DNA from: Bacteroidales bacterium
GTDB taxonomy: Bacteria; Bacteroidota; Bacteroidia; Bacteroidales; VadinHA17
Length of the DNA stretch: 12,515 bases
Direction of reading: 5' to 3'
NCBI GenBank assembly: GCA_003518245.1
Contig: DOZA01000100.1
Coordinates: 1 to 12,515 of the forward strand
Position numbers and translations under genes: made by a program. This document shows, in pieces, positions 1,891-11,500 of the stretch; position 1 is the first letter of the stretch; each line of letters begins with the position of its first letter. The notes under the pieces were generated by a model. That model worked only from the letters and a program-made list of their open reading frames with translations, was not told the origin of the DNA and did no database searches.

Positions 1891-5128
<3,238 letters not shown>

Positions 5129-5899
5129 TTATTTGATATGTTCTACTTTACATGCAGATAGTTTAAAAGGTGCTATCTTGGAATAGGGATCAAGCTCTGC
5201 CCTTGTTAAGTTGTTGACCAGTGCTTCAGAGAAATGCCATGGCATAAATAATTCGCCAATTGCAACCTGGTCGCTTTCGTGCAGGGATGTAACCAGTTCA
5301 CCTCTGCTGTTGGATATCCTCACCCTGTCGCCTGTTTTAAATCCATAATTATCGGCATCTATCATATTCATCAGTACATAAGCCTCATTGGCATAATCAT
5401 TAAGTACCTTGTTCCTCCTCGACATGGTTGATGAATGATACTGGTATAATATTCTTCCCGAGTTAAGTATAAAGGGATATTCTTTACTCGCCTTTTCACT
5501 TTGTTCTATATGATCAACAGGGTTTAGTTTTGCCTTACCGTTATCTGTATTAAATTTATCAAGAAATAATGTTGATGTTCCGGGATGGTTACTGTTGGGG
5601 CATGGCCACTGTATCCCTTCATGCTCTATCCTGTCATATGATATTCCCTTCATAATAATTGCTGACTGTGCTATCTCATCAAAAATTTCAGATGCATTGT
5701 TATAATTACCAATATTATAACCCATTTTTTCAGCTATCATCATAATTATTTTCCAGTCTTCTTCTCCTTCACCAGGCATCTCAACTGCTTTTCTCACCCT
5801 TATTACCCTTCTGTCGCTATTCACGAAAGTACCATTTTTTTCAGCATATGAAGAGGCGGGCAGTATAACATCAGCAAATTTGGTTGCCTCATCTTCGTT
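5129..5899 (-). pseudogene. Formate dehydrogenase alpha subunit, C-terminal fragment
   Basis: This reads as the C-terminal end of a molybdopterin-dependent formate dehydrogenase (FdhA/FdhF family). The homology begins upstream of any credible start codon, at about 5899, with NEDEATKFADVILPASSYAE followed by KNGTFVNSDRRVIRVRKA, the conserved segment in which these enzymes carry ADVxLPA and the (R)RVxRVRKA motif. The molybdopterin dinucleotide-binding domain follows: YPFILNSGRILYQYHSSTMS, GFKTGDRVRI, then GELFMPWHFSEALVNNLTRA and a complete C-terminus ending KLSACKVEHIK. About 255 residues survive. The N-terminal Fe-S domain, the Cys/Sec active-site region and most of the Mo-bis-MGD domain are absent. 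The GTG at 5824 is an internal Val codon (GTFVNS), not a real start, and the frame runs into TGA at 5914-5912 just upstream. The piece cannot be an active enzyme. It ends 6 bases before the galactosidase start, so the two may share a transcript. Confidence 0.85.
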
Positions 5900-5928
5900 G
5901 CCTGAGCTATTTCAATGTCTGATTTCAT
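5890..5928 (-). pseudogene. fhs: 5' end of formate-tetrahydrofolate ligase, truncated
   Basis: On the minus strand an ATG at 5928-5926 opens MKSDIEIAQATKM, the characteristic N-terminus of formate-tetrahydrofolate ligase (the Moorella enzyme begins with a close SDIEIAQAAKMKPV). After these 13 residues the similarity ends: the frame continues as unrelated RQPNLLMLYCPP and stops at a TGA at 5823-5821, a 35-codon product. The DNA at 5890-5899 is also the start of the formate dehydrogenase fragment in another frame, where it encodes NEDEA. The natural start codon and upstream leader of fhs therefore seem to be kept, while the rest of fhs (about 540 codons in the family) and the front of the dehydrogenase gene are missing. 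The identification rests on a short but distinctive match. No intact fhs lies in the window. Confidence 0.6.
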
Positions 5929-6072
5929 AGTAGATTGTTTATTTTGGTTAATATTTATTTGTCAATAAACTGGTAAGTGCCTAATATATCTATAACATAT
6001 TAAACCTGTTCTTGTTCTGAATCCCACTCATCATTAACCAGTTTTATTAATAATATTTAGCCTAAACAATAG

Positions 6073-6080
6073 TATATTTG
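6073..6080 (+). promoter_or_regulatory. Candidate -7 box for the SDR gene in divergent region
   Basis: TATATTTG matches TAnnTTTG exactly, about 85 bases before the SDR start codon, within the 236-base region between the divergent fhs remnant and the SDR gene. No clear TTTG sits 19-21 bases upstream; nearby runs are GTTTT at 6041 and TTTA at 6056. A short inverted repeat, CATAAT/ATTATG (6112-6117 and 6128-6133), lies between the box and the gene and could be an operator or chance. Nothing else was recognised in this region. Confidence 0.35.
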
Positions 6081-6164
6081 ATATAAAAAAAATATAAGAT
6101 ACAAAATTTACCATAATGCGGGTAAAAATTATGAACTTATAAATATGGACAAGTTGCACAGCTT

Positions 6165-6965
6165 ATGAATCATATAATTATAACCGGTGGTACCAGAGGC
6201 ATTGGATTTGGGATGGTCAGGGAATTTCTTAACCGAGGATTTAATGTAACATTCTGCGGCACTACTGATAATTCAGTAATGAAAGCAATGTCAGCCCTTA
6301 CAGAGAAATGGTCATCAAAAAAATTCAGGGGTGTCGTTTGTGATGTGTCAAAAAAAGAGGATCTGTTAAACCTCTGGGATTTTGGCACAAAGATATTCGG
6401 CGAGGTTGATATATGGATCAATAATGCAGGTATCAACAATTTCCGGGCGCCGTTCAATGAGCTTGGTACGAATGTGTTCAGCAGGATTATTGATACTAAT
6501 ATTAAAGGACTGATGTATGCTACACACCTTGCGTATAACAATATGCAGAAGCAGGGCAAAGGTTTTATTTATAATATGGGAGGTCTGGGCAGTGACGGCA
6601 GGATAATAAAAGGACAGGCTCCTTACGGCACTTCCAAACGAGCAGTGCAATATTTCACTAGGGCGTTTGCAAAAGAGATTAAGAAAGCTGATAATGTAAA
6701 AATTGGCCTTTTATTACCAGGCATGGTGCTCACTGATATGCTTCTTGACCCTATAAGGAGGGATAGTGATAACTCCAGACGACTTAAAAGAGTATACAAC
6801 CTGCTTGCCGATGAAGTTGAACCGGTGGCTGATTATCTTGCAGAAAAGATTATTGATAACCAAAAGAACGGAGCTGTAATTTCTTATTCCGGTAGCTTCA
6901 AAATGTTTCTCAGGGTGCCAGGAAGAATGTTAAGTGGCAGGGATATTGTTTCAAGTAAGCTATGA
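6165..6965 (+). CDS. Short-chain dehydrogenase/reductase, NOL/NYC1-like
   Basis: A 266-residue NAD(P)-dependent classical SDR with a Rossmann fold. The cofactor loop TGGTRGIG is at 7-14, the adenine-contacting Asp60 is in CDVSKKED, and NNAG is at 86-89. The catalytic residues are Asn112 (TNIKG), Ser143 (LGSDGR), Tyr154 and Lys158 (YGTSK). Ser143 lies 11 residues before the Tyr instead of the common 13. That spacing, with the GSDGR sequence after it, is the pattern of plant chlorophyll b reductases NOL/NYC1. PGMVLTD (185-191) and the following insert up to VEPVADYLAEKI also match that branch. Bacterial members need not act on chlorophyll, and the substrate here is unknown. The C-terminal tail (KMFLRVPGRMLSG) is hydrophobic-basic and could touch the membrane. 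No signal peptide, so cytoplasmic. It stands alone, converging on the SusC/SusD operon. Confidence 0.88.
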   Translation: MNHIIITGGTRGIGFGMVREFLNRGFNVTFCGTTDNSVMKAMSALTEKWSSKKFRGVVCDVSKKEDLLNLWDFGTKIFGEVDIWINNAGINNFRAPFNELGTNVFSRIIDTNIKGLMYATHLAYNNMQKQGKGFIYNMGGLGSDGRIIKGQAPYGTSKRAVQYFTRAFAKEIKKADNVKIGLLLPGMVLTDMLLDPIRRDSDNSRRLKRVYNLLADEVEPVADYLAEKIIDNQKNGAVISYSGSFKMFLRVPGRMLSGRDIVSSKL

Positions 6966-7020
6966 AGATGAGACGGGCTAAGGCTCTGCTATCGGCATTC
7001 GCACAGTTCGGGTTGTTAAA

Positions 7021-7040
7021 ATTAGCGATAATTAGTGTAT
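7021..7040. repeat. Two decamers related to the 1891-1944 repeat
   Basis: ATTAGCGATA followed by ATTAGTGTAT, in the same orientation as the array at 1891-1944. The shared string AATTAGCG followed three bases later by ATT occurs at both sites, and both lie just beyond the end of a coding region. Short, so a chance match is possible. Confidence 0.4.
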
Positions 7041-7050
7041 CAAAGAAGAA

Positions 7051-7073
7051 GGCGTGGATCTCTGATCCACGCC
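7051..7073 (-). terminator. 10-bp hairpin ending the SusC/SusD operon
   Basis: GGCGTGGATC (7051-7060) and GATCCACGCC (7064-7073) form a perfect G+C-rich 10-bp stem around the loop TCT, about 50 bases beyond the susD-like stop codon. On the minus strand it is followed by TTCTTCTTTGATA, a U-rich tail, so it should act as an intrinsic terminator for that operon. It may also stop transcripts of the SDR gene, which ends 86 bases away on the other side. Confidence 0.75.
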
Positions 7074-7085
7074 ATCCTGTATTAT

Positions 7086-7102
7086 CCTAATCTTTAATTA
7101 GG
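7086..7102. repeat. Small inverted repeat after the SusD-like gene
   Basis: CCTAAT (7086-7091) and ATTAGG (7097-7102) make a perfect 6-bp stem with a 5-base loop, between the SusD-like stop codon and the stronger terminator hairpin. It may be an auxiliary part of the transcript end. Confidence 0.35.
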
Positions 7103-7124
7103 CGTTTATTAGTCTATTCAGAAA

Positions 7125-8570
7125 TTACTTCATTGATTTATTATCCCACCATACTTTAGTAAACAATGCATTGAAATTATTATCAGGGCAGTTAGAATTT
7201 CTTTCCTTCTCACTGGTAGGATACGGCCATCTTCTGGGGGTTGTTTCGTTTGACACCGCACCTAGCAGAAATTCCTGAAATTTCATCACAGGGTAACCAG
7301 TACGAACAAAGTCAAAATAAACCTCACTATTAGTTGTAAAATTAGCAATATACTTCTGCATCATCACGAAAGCCTGGGCTTCTTCAACTGTTGATGGAAA
7401 AGTAAATTGTGCTATATATGGAGTTATATCAGAATTATCCAATCCTAATCCTTCCATATTAGCAGTAACAGCCTCTTCCCATGCATCCTGAGCATTGGTA
7501 AAATCACTCTGTAATACATAGGCTTCTGCCTCGAGGAATTTACATTCCACATAATTCATGAATGTTTCCGGGTATGTTGGTCCGACAAAACTTTCTGATA
7601 TATAGCTGGGAGCATCGCCTCCCAGTATATATTCACCGGAGATCCATCCCTGGTATATTCCTGTTTCTTCCACGTCAAAATATATAGCTCTGCGCGGATC
7701 ATTATTATAATTCATGGTATCTACCATATATTTACAGGGTGTGAGTCTCTGGACATCCGTCCAGTTGGGACCATGCTCGTAATAACCGCTTTGGAAACCT
7801 GTACCTGTATAATGCCTGAATAAAGCATCATCATCACTCGAGGCCATTCCATTTAACAGAGCTGTCAGTACAGCACCTACCTGTGTAGTGGTTGTTATCC
7901 CGGGGGCATAACAAAGTCTCATGGTATAGCGAGCTTTCAGTGAATAAGCTAGTTTTATCCATTTATCCATATCACCTTCGAACACAAGATCATCATTTCT
8001 CACAACCCTGGTCTGCGCATCTTCTGATGTTTGAAGGTTTACAATGGCCGCATCAAGCAATCTAAACACTTCAGTATATACAGATTGCTGATCATCGAAA
8101 ACAGGATTGGTAATTTCAGGAAATTGAAAAGATTCTGTCAATGGTATAGGACCATAATAATCGGTAAGATTAGCCCATCCCCATGCCATAATAATCTGTG
8201 CAATTCCCTGATAATGAGGATTCCCATTTTCAGCAGCCATTGCCTCAAGTCTAACAGCATGTTTCTGGATGCTTGTAAACATTCCCCATGGGCCGCCTGA
8301 GTTATCAGCGTGAACGTAGTTACCCCAGAGACCTGTAGGTGGAGCACCTACCCTGACCCATTGCAGAGTTTGATAAAAAGCATCAACTCCACGGGAACAT
8401 ATACCATTATATGCCCATCTTCCCAACAGGCCCGGTAAAGTTGTTGCTTCTGTAATCTCACTGGATGTAGGGCTGTCAGGATCTTCATTAACGTCGAGGA
8501 ATTCTTCACACGAAGCAAGGGTCATGGTAAACAGACCCAACATAATTAAATATTTATATAATTTCTTCAT
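7125..8570 (-). CDS. SusD/RagB-like outer-membrane lipoprotein (SusD_2 type)
   Basis: The 481-residue product is the surface glycan- or nutrient-binding lid that partners the SusC-type channel encoded upstream. The signal peptide is lipoprotein-type: MKKLYKYL, hydrophobic 8-19, lipobox LASC with Cys21. It is followed directly by EEFLDVNEDPDSP, an acidic stretch consistent with surface export and with the (D)VNxxPxxP signature of the SusD_2 branch. The rest is alpha-helical and tetratricopeptide-like, with the usual family landmarks WGWANLTDYYGPIPLTES (about 130-147), the KWIKLAYSLKARYTMRL helix (about 203-219) and the ECKFLEAEAYV helix (about 342-352). Length is typical. The gene begins 24 bases after the SusC-type stop codon, so the two are co-transcribed. 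The ligand cannot be inferred; SusD_2 members occur with peptides and other nutrients as well as glycans. Confidence 0.92.
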   Translation of the reverse strand: MKKLYKYLIMLGLFTMTLASCEEFLDVNEDPDSPTSSEITEATTLPGLLGRWAYNGICSRGVDAFYQTLQWVRVGAPPTGLWGNYVHADNSGGPWGMFTSIQKHAVRLEAMAAENGNPHYQGIAQIIMAWGWANLTDYYGPIPLTESFQFPEITNPVFDDQQSVYTEVFRLLDAAIVNLQTSEDAQTRVVRNDDLVFEGDMDKWIKLAYSLKARYTMRLCYAPGITTTTQVGAVLTALLNGMASSDDDALFRHYTGTGFQSGYYEHGPNWTDVQRLTPCKYMVDTMNYNNDPRRAIYFDVEETGIYQGWISGEYILGGDAPSYISESFVGPTYPETFMNYVECKFLEAEAYVLQSDFTNAQDAWEEAVTANMEGLGLDNSDITPYIAQFTFPSTVEEAQAFVMMQKYIANFTTNSEVYFDFVRTGYPVMKFQEFLLGAVSNETTPRRWPYPTSEKERNSNCPDNNFNALFTKVWWDNKSMK

Positions 8571-8594
8571 TTTTCTCGATTTTTATATGAACCA

Positions 8595-11500
8595 TTATTT
8601 AAAAGTAATTGAAATACCAAATGAATAAGATTTGGTATCTGGCATCATATAGGTTGACCATCCCTGGGAATTACCGATTCCGTTCTGATTGACTTCAGGA
8701 TCGGAACCTGAGAAATCCTTGGCGTAAATACGCAACAGATTTCTACCCTGGGCAGTAAAACTTACATTATCAATCCATGACACTTTTGAGAGTATATCCC
8801 TGGGGAGGGTATATGTCAGAGAGACGTCACGTAACTTCAGAAAATCACCTGGTTGTATTGACTCTTCGGTAACATAACTATAATACCACTGCCATCCTTT
8901 TACAACTTCAGACTCGATATCGTTGACCTCGCCTGAGAGAATCAGATTATTGCTTGCATCATAATGTCCCTTTACGCCTTCATGTACAAGTATCCCATTT
9001 GCAGGTCTGTCTTCCTGTCTTTTGGCCATACCATAATATAAAAGATAATAGTCTGTACCACTACTTATTACATTACCAACCCTGAAGTCAAAGAAGGCTG
9101 TCAGGCTTAGATTCTTATATGTAACAGTATTTCTGACCCCTCCAGCAAAATCGGGTTCGTTTGTTCCGATAATATTCTGACCATAATCAATCAGGTAATA
9201 CCCATATGTAGAACTCGCAGGGTCGTCATCTACCACCTTATTACCATTATCATCCCGGACATATTGAGAGCCACGGAATACTGCATATGGTTCTCCTTCA
9301 ACAATGGATGAATTTCCTCCAGTATCTATTGATGGTACTCCATCAGCAATTTTTTCAACAACACTCTTATTCTTATACCAGTTAAGGTTAACATCCCAAC
9401 TCAGATTCTCGGTTTTTACCGGTGTCAGGTTAAGTGAGAGTTCAACTCCCTTATTGGATATCTTACCTATATTCATCAATACAGATGAGAACCCTGTAGT
9501 GATCGGTGTGTTTGCAGGTAATATCTGATTAAGACTTATCTTATTGTATACAGCTCCTTCAAATCCAATCCTGTTATTGAACATTCTTAACTCCAGTCCA
9601 AATTCCCATTCGTTTGTCTCCTCGTTTTTAAGATCAGTGTTTCCTGCAGCCGTTCCTTCAAGATAGCTACCTACTCCATTGTAGGGATATTGAAGTGATG
9701 GTATTCCTGCTCCTCCATAAGCATTGGCAACATTAGATCGTGTAAAGATTGAATAAGCCGGGGCATCGTTACCGACCGATGCATACGACGCTCTAATCTT
9801 TCCATAATTAAGGAAAGGTATTTCCACGAGTTCTGAGAATATAAAACCCAGGCTGTTTGAAGAATAGAAATAGGAATTATTCTCTGTTGGTAAGGTGGAT
9901 GACCAGTCGTTACGTCCCGTGAAGGTGTAATACAGGAAATCACGGAATGATATAACTGCCTGACCGTATCCACTGTAGGAACGGCGCTGCCAGATGTTAC
10001 TCCAGGGCGTTTGTGTTGAACAGTTATAGATATTATACCACTCCGGAATATTATAATCTGCTCCGTCAATTCCTTCACTCTTCGTCTGGTAAGTCTGGAT
10101 ATTATGACCGATCATAAAATCAGTTTTCAAATCCCCACCCATAAACTCTTTCCGGTAATTCAATAAAATGTCTGAGTTGAAGCTAAAATATTCTTCATTT
10201 GCCTGACTATAACTTCCTGTTGTAGAGCCATAGGCAATCGATCCGACATTGACATAGAAATACCGTCGCTGACTATAGAAATCAACACCTGCTCTTCCTG
10301 TCAGGTTCAAACCCTCGAGTATCTGATATTCGAGTGTAAATACCGGCTTAAATCTGTGCCGCTGAACATTATTTCTTGTATTTTCCTGTATCCAGAGGTA
10401 ATTGTTTCTGCCGGCGTACCGATATATTCGCTGACGTCCGTTATCATCGACTATCGGTTCAGGGTTCCATGTCCATGGGCTAGCCAGAAATGAATTCATA
10501 AATGATGAAAGGGAGCTCCATCCTTCAATAAGGCGATCATTATCCGTATTAATATAGTTAAGACCTACTGTAGCTTTAACCTTGTCTGTTACCTGAGCCG
10601 TAAGATTTGTCGTAAAACTGGTACGGCGCAACTTGGTAGGATCCAAAACTCCGCTTAAATCAGTATGATTAATAGCACCAAAGTATGAGATATTTTCACT
10701 ACCACCTGAGATACTGAAGCTTGACTCAGATGTATATCCTGTTTTAAAATATTTCCATCTGTCATATTTTGTTGCTTCACCTGAGCTTACAACATCAGAT
10801 ATCTTCGGGCCCCAGCTTGATGATGTATATTCTCCTTCCTCAGTATCATACAAAACATAGCCTCCGGCAGCTGCACTATATAAACCCATAGCCCAGGTCT
10901 CCTGCAGAGGAGTTTCATAAATTTTATCAAAAGTTGATCTATGAGAAATCTTTATGGTGGGTTTAGTGTTTAGTTTTCCTGATTTTGTTGTAACAAGGAT
11001 CACTCCGTTTGCCGCCCTTGAACCATAGAGTGCAGAAGCAGCAGCACCTTTAAGTATGGAGATGTTCTCAATGTTGATTGGGTCCAGGTCTAAACCTGTA
11101 GATGTACCTGGTCCGCCATCCTGGCTTCCTGTTTCACTGTTATCAAACGGAATTCCATCAACAATGAAAAGAGGTTGATTATTATAGAGTAATGAAGAAT
11201 TACCCCTTATAGTAATTCTTGCCGCTCCTCCTGGTTGGCTGGAGGATGTTGAGATCTGAACACCTGCAACTTTACCTGAAAGGGCAGTAATAACATTGGC
11301 CTCCTGAGCATTGGCCAATTCTTCATTATCAACTTCTCCTACTGAATATCCGAGAGCCTTTCTTTCTCTTCGAATACCAAGCGCCGTGACCACAACCTCG
11401 CCTACTTCTTCAAGCGAAGGTTGCATAATTACATCGACCACTGACCTTCCGTTTACAGCTACCTGCTGTTCCAGAAAGCCAATATACCTGAAAATAAGTG

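Follow-up and report, generated by a model that had tools for sequence, protein, structure and literature searches.

Results

Genes and gene remnants at the locus

The window, by which we mean the whole stretch of DNA that was analysed, is the entire contig C415 (12,515 b) of a metagenome bin, G000, of 2.9 Mb in 419 contigs (completeness 89.6%, contamination 3.5%), and its uncultured host probably belongs to the Bacteroidales. It is compared below with G001, G003 and G002, which are genomes of the same genus, and with G010, a further relative. The labels mobA, nuoE, nuoF, dmsA, dmsB, dmsC, moeA and mog were assigned from sequence and gene neighbours, unless a Pfam match is given. The region around the junction comprises the following features:

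6165..6965, plus strand: SDR-family oxidoreductase gene (Pfam adh_short), divergent from the fhs start; it marks one flank of the ancestral locus, since in G003, G002 and G010 it lies next to fhs in divergent orientation
5929..6164, no strand: intergenic region between the SDR gene and the fhs start; presumed site of the fhs promoter, from the divergent arrangement
5890..5928, minus strand: fhs remnant, the first 13 codons, aligned to the fhs starts of G001, G002, G003 and G010
5888..5892, minus strand: probable deletion junction, with 1-4 bases possibly common to both parents, judged from relatives
5821..5928, minus strand: fused 35-codon frame that opens at the fhs start, and its stop (reading-frame analysis)
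5129..5890, minus strand: fdhA 3' remnant, matching G001 fdhA from codon 657 to codon 909 and including the stop (alignment, Pfam)
5129..5824, minus strand: putative 231-aa ORF with a GTG start, inside the fdhA remnant; the public protein P0001 (231 aa) differs from it at two positions
1925..5122, minus strand: GH2 beta-galactosidase, whole gene (Pfam), found directly after fdhA in G001 and G003

The preliminary description had seen in this region an fhs'/'fdhA junction on the minus strand, read in two frames, and our alignments bear this out. The 39 bases from 5928 to 5890 read MKSDIEIAQATKM, the start of fhs, and this start is conserved in close relatives, being MKSDIEIAQATKM in G003 and G002, MKSDIEIAQTTRM in G001 and MKSDIEIAQAANM in G010 (four relatives aligned). 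In the other frame, the GAG at 5890-5888 opens EATKFADVILPA..., which corresponds to the C-terminal portion of a formate dehydrogenase alpha subunit. The resulting remnant of 253 codons, free of internal stops or frameshifts, is 82% identical to residues 657-909 of G001 fdhA and matches positions 298-353 of 353 of the Pfam family Molybdopterin (PF00384) together with Molydop_binding. A complete molybdopterin oxidoreductase domain is absent from the window, as is the FTHFS domain (PF01268), of whose gene 13 codons are present. The stop of the fused 35-codon frame, TGA, shares bases with the GTG start of the 231-aa ORF (GTGA), and six bases separate the end of the fdhA remnant (5129) from the GH2 gene. 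The one Bacteroidetes-type promoter pattern tried gave no match upstream of the fhs start (5929..6164).

The intact operon in related genomes

In G001 the genes lie on one strand in the order fhs - mobA - nuoE - nuoF - fdhA - GH2; this contig ends 104 b before fhs, which places the SDR side outside it. The arrangement in G003 is SDR (divergent) - fhs - mobA - first nuoE-nuoF-fdhA set - second nuoE-nuoF-fdhA set - GH2. Both flanks, SDR and GH2, are found together in G003; of the two, GH2 is found also in G001, and SDR, again divergent and next to fhs, also in G002 and G010. The window, with its order of SDR gene, 13 fhs codons, last 253 fdhA codons and GH2, is the cluster of the relatives minus its middle, and at least five genes are missing from it wholly or in part. 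The missing interval amounts to 6,155 b in comparison with G001 and 11,293 b in comparison with G003. The fdhA tail is of the second-set type, with 82% identity to G001 and G003 versus 41% to the first-set protein. Because the SDR and GH2 genes beside the junction are the flanks of the intact cluster in G003, the junction is not a product of chance.

A same-strand pair of fhs and fdhA, which had been suggested as something to look for in relatives, thus exists in G001 and G003 of the same genus, and the intact parental arrangement there supports the earlier proposal of a deletion between genes of the same direction. The accompanying view of an ancestor with adjacent fhs and fdhA genes that lost both was right in that most of both genes is gone, but the parents were not neighbours: mobA, nuoE and nuoF lie between them, and in G003 another nuoE-nuoF-fdhA set as well. 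Gene order varies elsewhere, and two loci of more distant genomes (L046 and L048) have the two genes on one strand in the reverse order, fdhA before fhs. At another locus (L015; G008:C74, 11733-11816) 28 residues that match the GH2 C-terminus lie just beyond fdhA and are perhaps the remnant of a lost GH2 gene.

Bases shared at the junction

Two details of the preliminary description did not survive comparison with 29 distinct fdhA junction sites, drawn from 25 of 37 relative loci with first-set fdhA genes included. The segment NEDEATKFADVILPA, taken there as conserved in fdhA, has no counterpart, as NEDEAT occurs at none of the 29 sites and HTETT at 18. A microhomology of 9-10 bases is likewise rejected, as ACGAAGATG occurs at 0/29. 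The residues N-E-D at the junction are fhs sequence in the other frame, and ACGAAGATG is therefore not common to both parents. In three of the four relatives, similarity to fhs persists as far as the A that follows the second ATG (5889), and similarity to fdhA begins at the Glu codon 5890-5888. The identical run that ends at the second base of this codon measures 2 bases at 20 of the 29 sites, 3 bases at five, 4 at two and 1 at two, giving 1-4 shared bases, a range estimated from relatives and not from this species' own parental sequence. Our literature search returned no account of this junction among the matches listed.

Other broken operons in the bin and the genus

Whether intact copies lie elsewhere in the bin, a question already raised in the preliminary description, has a mixed answer: outside the window, the bin (89.6% complete) yielded neither a complete fhs nor a complete fdhA of this type, and the edge of contig C140 holds a 3' part of fhs. 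The searches for missing parts covered fhs, fdhA and nuoF. With full-length fdhA as query, the hits in the bin were the window tail, 31 residues on C140 and a remote match (32%) on C341; nuoF had no close match in the bin, with identities of 46% and 38% only; and FTHFS (PF01268) had a single match, residues 305-556, at the C140 edge. From that edge, C140 continues with mobA and then with a fused frame of 845 aa (L010, 1710-4247) composed of nuoE from about residue 17, at most about 31 residues of fdhA, and GH2 from about residue 293; the bases just 5' of this frame look, by eye, frame-shifted relative to nuoE. C140 may be a foreign contig from another species, as its GH2 is just 73% identical to that of the window, about as distant as the window is from G001 (0.74). 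Against this, its tetranucleotide profile fits the bin (0.911, compared with a median of 0.863 for 21 small bin contigs), and its G+C of 0.417 is reached by three of 40 sampled contigs.

The sister species G002 also carries a damaged locus (L167; G002:C2), in which nuoE is down to a 31-residue match and GH2 to remnants, with two transposase-like ORFs (identified by eye) between these remnants at 6758-9195, and in which the first fdh set is present. The lesions of C140 and G002 at the fhs-fdh-GH2 locus differ from that of the window, and loss here is apparently recurrent. Further along the G002 locus, at 11873-15028, an ORF of 1051 aa appears by eye to be NuoF-type and to run into an NAD(P)-binding, glutamate-synthase-like part.

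A second operon of the bin, likewise a molybdoenzyme operon, is broken in a similar manner, apparently through another in-operon deletion. On C402 (L162, 4413-5691) a DmsA-like gene with a PF00384 match is cut after about 146 codons, and the stub runs, out of frame, into the final ~35 codons of a dmsB-like gene, with a dmsC-like gene next; the missing interval is 2,469 b relative to both G001 and G003. The DmsA-like gene is intact in G003 and G002, and its G001 counterpart (L184; G001:C64, 2064-4463) is broken into two frames, one of 455 and one of 295 codons, with a TGA reported within it. The two genes of the bin that match PF00384, the window fdhA and the C402 gene, are therefore both truncated, versus 0/49 control genes (described below), in a comparison of small numbers between groups that were found differently and that was made after the fact.

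Origin of the junction

We consider an in-operon deletion that joined the fhs start to the fdhA tail to be the best explanation of the junction, and we hold it with considerable confidence. The ancestor would have carried the operon fhs - mobA - nuoE - nuoF - fdhA - GH2, as in the relatives, perhaps with a second nuoE-nuoF-fdhA set. A deletion in cis, presumably through end joining or replication slippage at the few shared bases, would have joined fhs codon 13 out of frame to about fdhA codon 657. Lost with it would be nearly the entire formate-tetrahydrofolate ligase, along with the MobA-like protein, both Nuo-like subunits (NuoE and NuoF) and the N-terminal ~72% of the formate dehydrogenase; the SDR gene and GH2 would have been spared, as would the beginning of fhs, with the region upstream of it, and the tail of fdhA. 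One such event is the simplest reading. Stepwise loss through nested deletions is a variant compatible with this explanation, in which the first fdh set went before the stretch from fhs to fdhA and the visible junction is only the last of two or more deletions. G003 has the first nuoE-nuoF-fdhA set and both G001 and C140 are without it between mobA and nuoE, so this set can be absent independently; as one junction explains everything in the window, we regard such a history as possible but not probable.

The other reading that has to be weighed is an assembly or amplification chimera, in which the genome holds an intact operon whose two ends the contig falsely joins. The bin is in 419 contigs, the overlap is of just 1-4 bases and a random chimera would also show few shared bases, and a single ORF on C140, from the same bin, contains two junctions, which could indicate a faulty library or assembly of the region. 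Public protein entries speak against a chimera. P0001 (same GTG start as the window ORF, two substitutions, a cluster of 3 sequences) and P0121, which is 100% identical to the window SDR protein, lie one on each side of the junction, and for each the longest contig given is 15,510 b, more than the 12,515 b of the window contig; we take them as one contig from these equal lengths. Because an intact fdhA would encode ~909 aa and P0001 has 231 aa, this contig very probably carries the same junction and would be a second instance of it, though the equal-length entries could stem from the same sample, assembled a second time. For the fusion protein of C140, too, the public entry gives a longest contig (6,606 b) that exceeds C140 itself (4,479 b). 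Furthermore, searches of the rest of the bin did not turn up the lost portions of fhs, fdhA and nuoF, and the joins of the window, C140 and C402 are all direct and within one operon, whereas MDA chimeras are mostly inversions: one published MDA experiment gives 406 inversions among 475 chimeras and 69 direct ones, 11 of these below 10 kb and 58 above (PMC1855051).

Control genes were free of truncation, which also argues against a chimera. Among 543 G003 ORFs from 40 sampled stretches, 50 were scorable against 40 sampled G000 contigs (a non-random choice: C1-C30, C411-C414 and C416-C419, plus C341 and C64, chosen for their nuoF matches), with 7 further edge-limited ORFs left out, and 49 of the 50 were covered over at least about 85%. 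The single flagged ORF, which we take to be a UvrA-type paralogue, reflects a comparison between paralogues and not a truncation. In the reverse direction, which looked for chimeric G000 frames or truncation in G003, all 53 scorable ORFs among 239 from G000 passed, and in a smaller first run no gene was flagged apart from the window fdhA, the nuoE of C140 and the UvrA-type paralogue. General truncation as a fault of the assembly was not seen in these 50 and 53 gene comparisons. An assembly chimera is, in our estimation, unlikely, with only a slight chance of being correct.

The deletion as preferred here leaves a question about the remnant, namely whether the 231-aa frame has been kept as a small functional protein, a putative dinucleotide-binding domain translated via the GTGA overlap. 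Its 253 codons without stop or frameshift and the equal length of the P0001 ORF are consistent with this, as is a lack of acceleration: identity is 0.82 to G001 and to G003, versus 0.79 between those two, and four unique departures from otherwise invariant sites compare with 2-6 in the seven relatives aligned. A recent deletion would look identical, however, and one of the two differences from P0001 is apparently an A-to-G change on the window side, at a position that does not vary among the seven relatives; we thus judge retention of a working protein to be very improbable. Relaxed selection on the remnant was rejected on the same absence of acceleration, with no dN/dS formed, as dS was saturated in most pairs. 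The lack of acceleration means that the deletion is young relative to the splits from G001 and G003 or that the remnant is still constrained, and if the second contig is as we describe it, the deletion predates the split of the two strains.

Discussion

Our findings describe what is, as a single event, ordinary gene loss. The junction resembles short-homology or illegitimate deletion in bacteria, in which same-direction sequences are joined in cis with the loss of kilobases, leaving a short overlap where they meet. In Salmonella, experimentally verified spontaneous deletions shared about 8 b or more at their junctions, in contrast to the 1-4 b here; that study selected for longer homologies, a bias which means that shorter ones are not contradicted (PMC3411829). 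By Pfam and by its 82% identity, the remnant belongs to a formate dehydrogenase of the NuoE-NuoF-FdhA type (a label taken from gene neighbours), but with the last 253 codons only it is not a working enzyme.

Formate oxidation and activation by this route would have been lost with the deletion, and transcription of GH2 would continue from the old upstream region. Judging from gene content, activation of formate by fhs and its oxidation by this formate dehydrogenase are gone from the organism, unless the tenth of the genome absent from the bin encodes them or C140 supplies fhs. The bin carries a pyruvate formate-lyase-like protein and FolD, so that formate could still form and formyl-THF could be made via FolD. 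The formate dehydrogenase genes of gastrointestinal acetogens, in one study, are reduced or lost in some lineages and kept in others, a lineage-wise loss that the fdhA loss in the window resembles (PMC10103890). The same study describes other Wood-Ljungdahl genes without a difference in copy number, whereas here fhs was lost together with fdhA and the scar is readable (PMC10103890).

Loss of cofactor synthesis was rejected, as MoaC is present in all four genus genomes searched, our own bin included. The bin has a weak match to the MoaA C-terminal domain, barely above the cut-off, and an apparently whole group of moaA-, moaC-, mog- and moeA-like genes beside modABC-like transport genes (L164; G000:C391, 3760-9700). 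Across the genus, we tentatively propose, at well below even chances, that molybdoenzyme operons have been lost repeatedly by separate in-operon deletions. These would have taken the catalytic genes and kept the operon start and the last non-molybdenum gene, passing the upstream region to the surviving downstream gene, with cofactor-synthesis genes persisting while the genus leaves formate and DMSO-reductase-type metabolism.

In summary, the junction represents the loss of a pathway with a readable scar, in an uncultured group seen here through metagenome bins only. It also carries a caution, as a bin annotated with formate dehydrogenase from a tail fragment may lack such an enzyme. The repeated breakage of molybdoenzyme operons in the genus is the part worth following, and if the pattern holds across multiple loci, it would become testable whether the loss of molybdoenzymes precedes the loss of cofactor synthesis.
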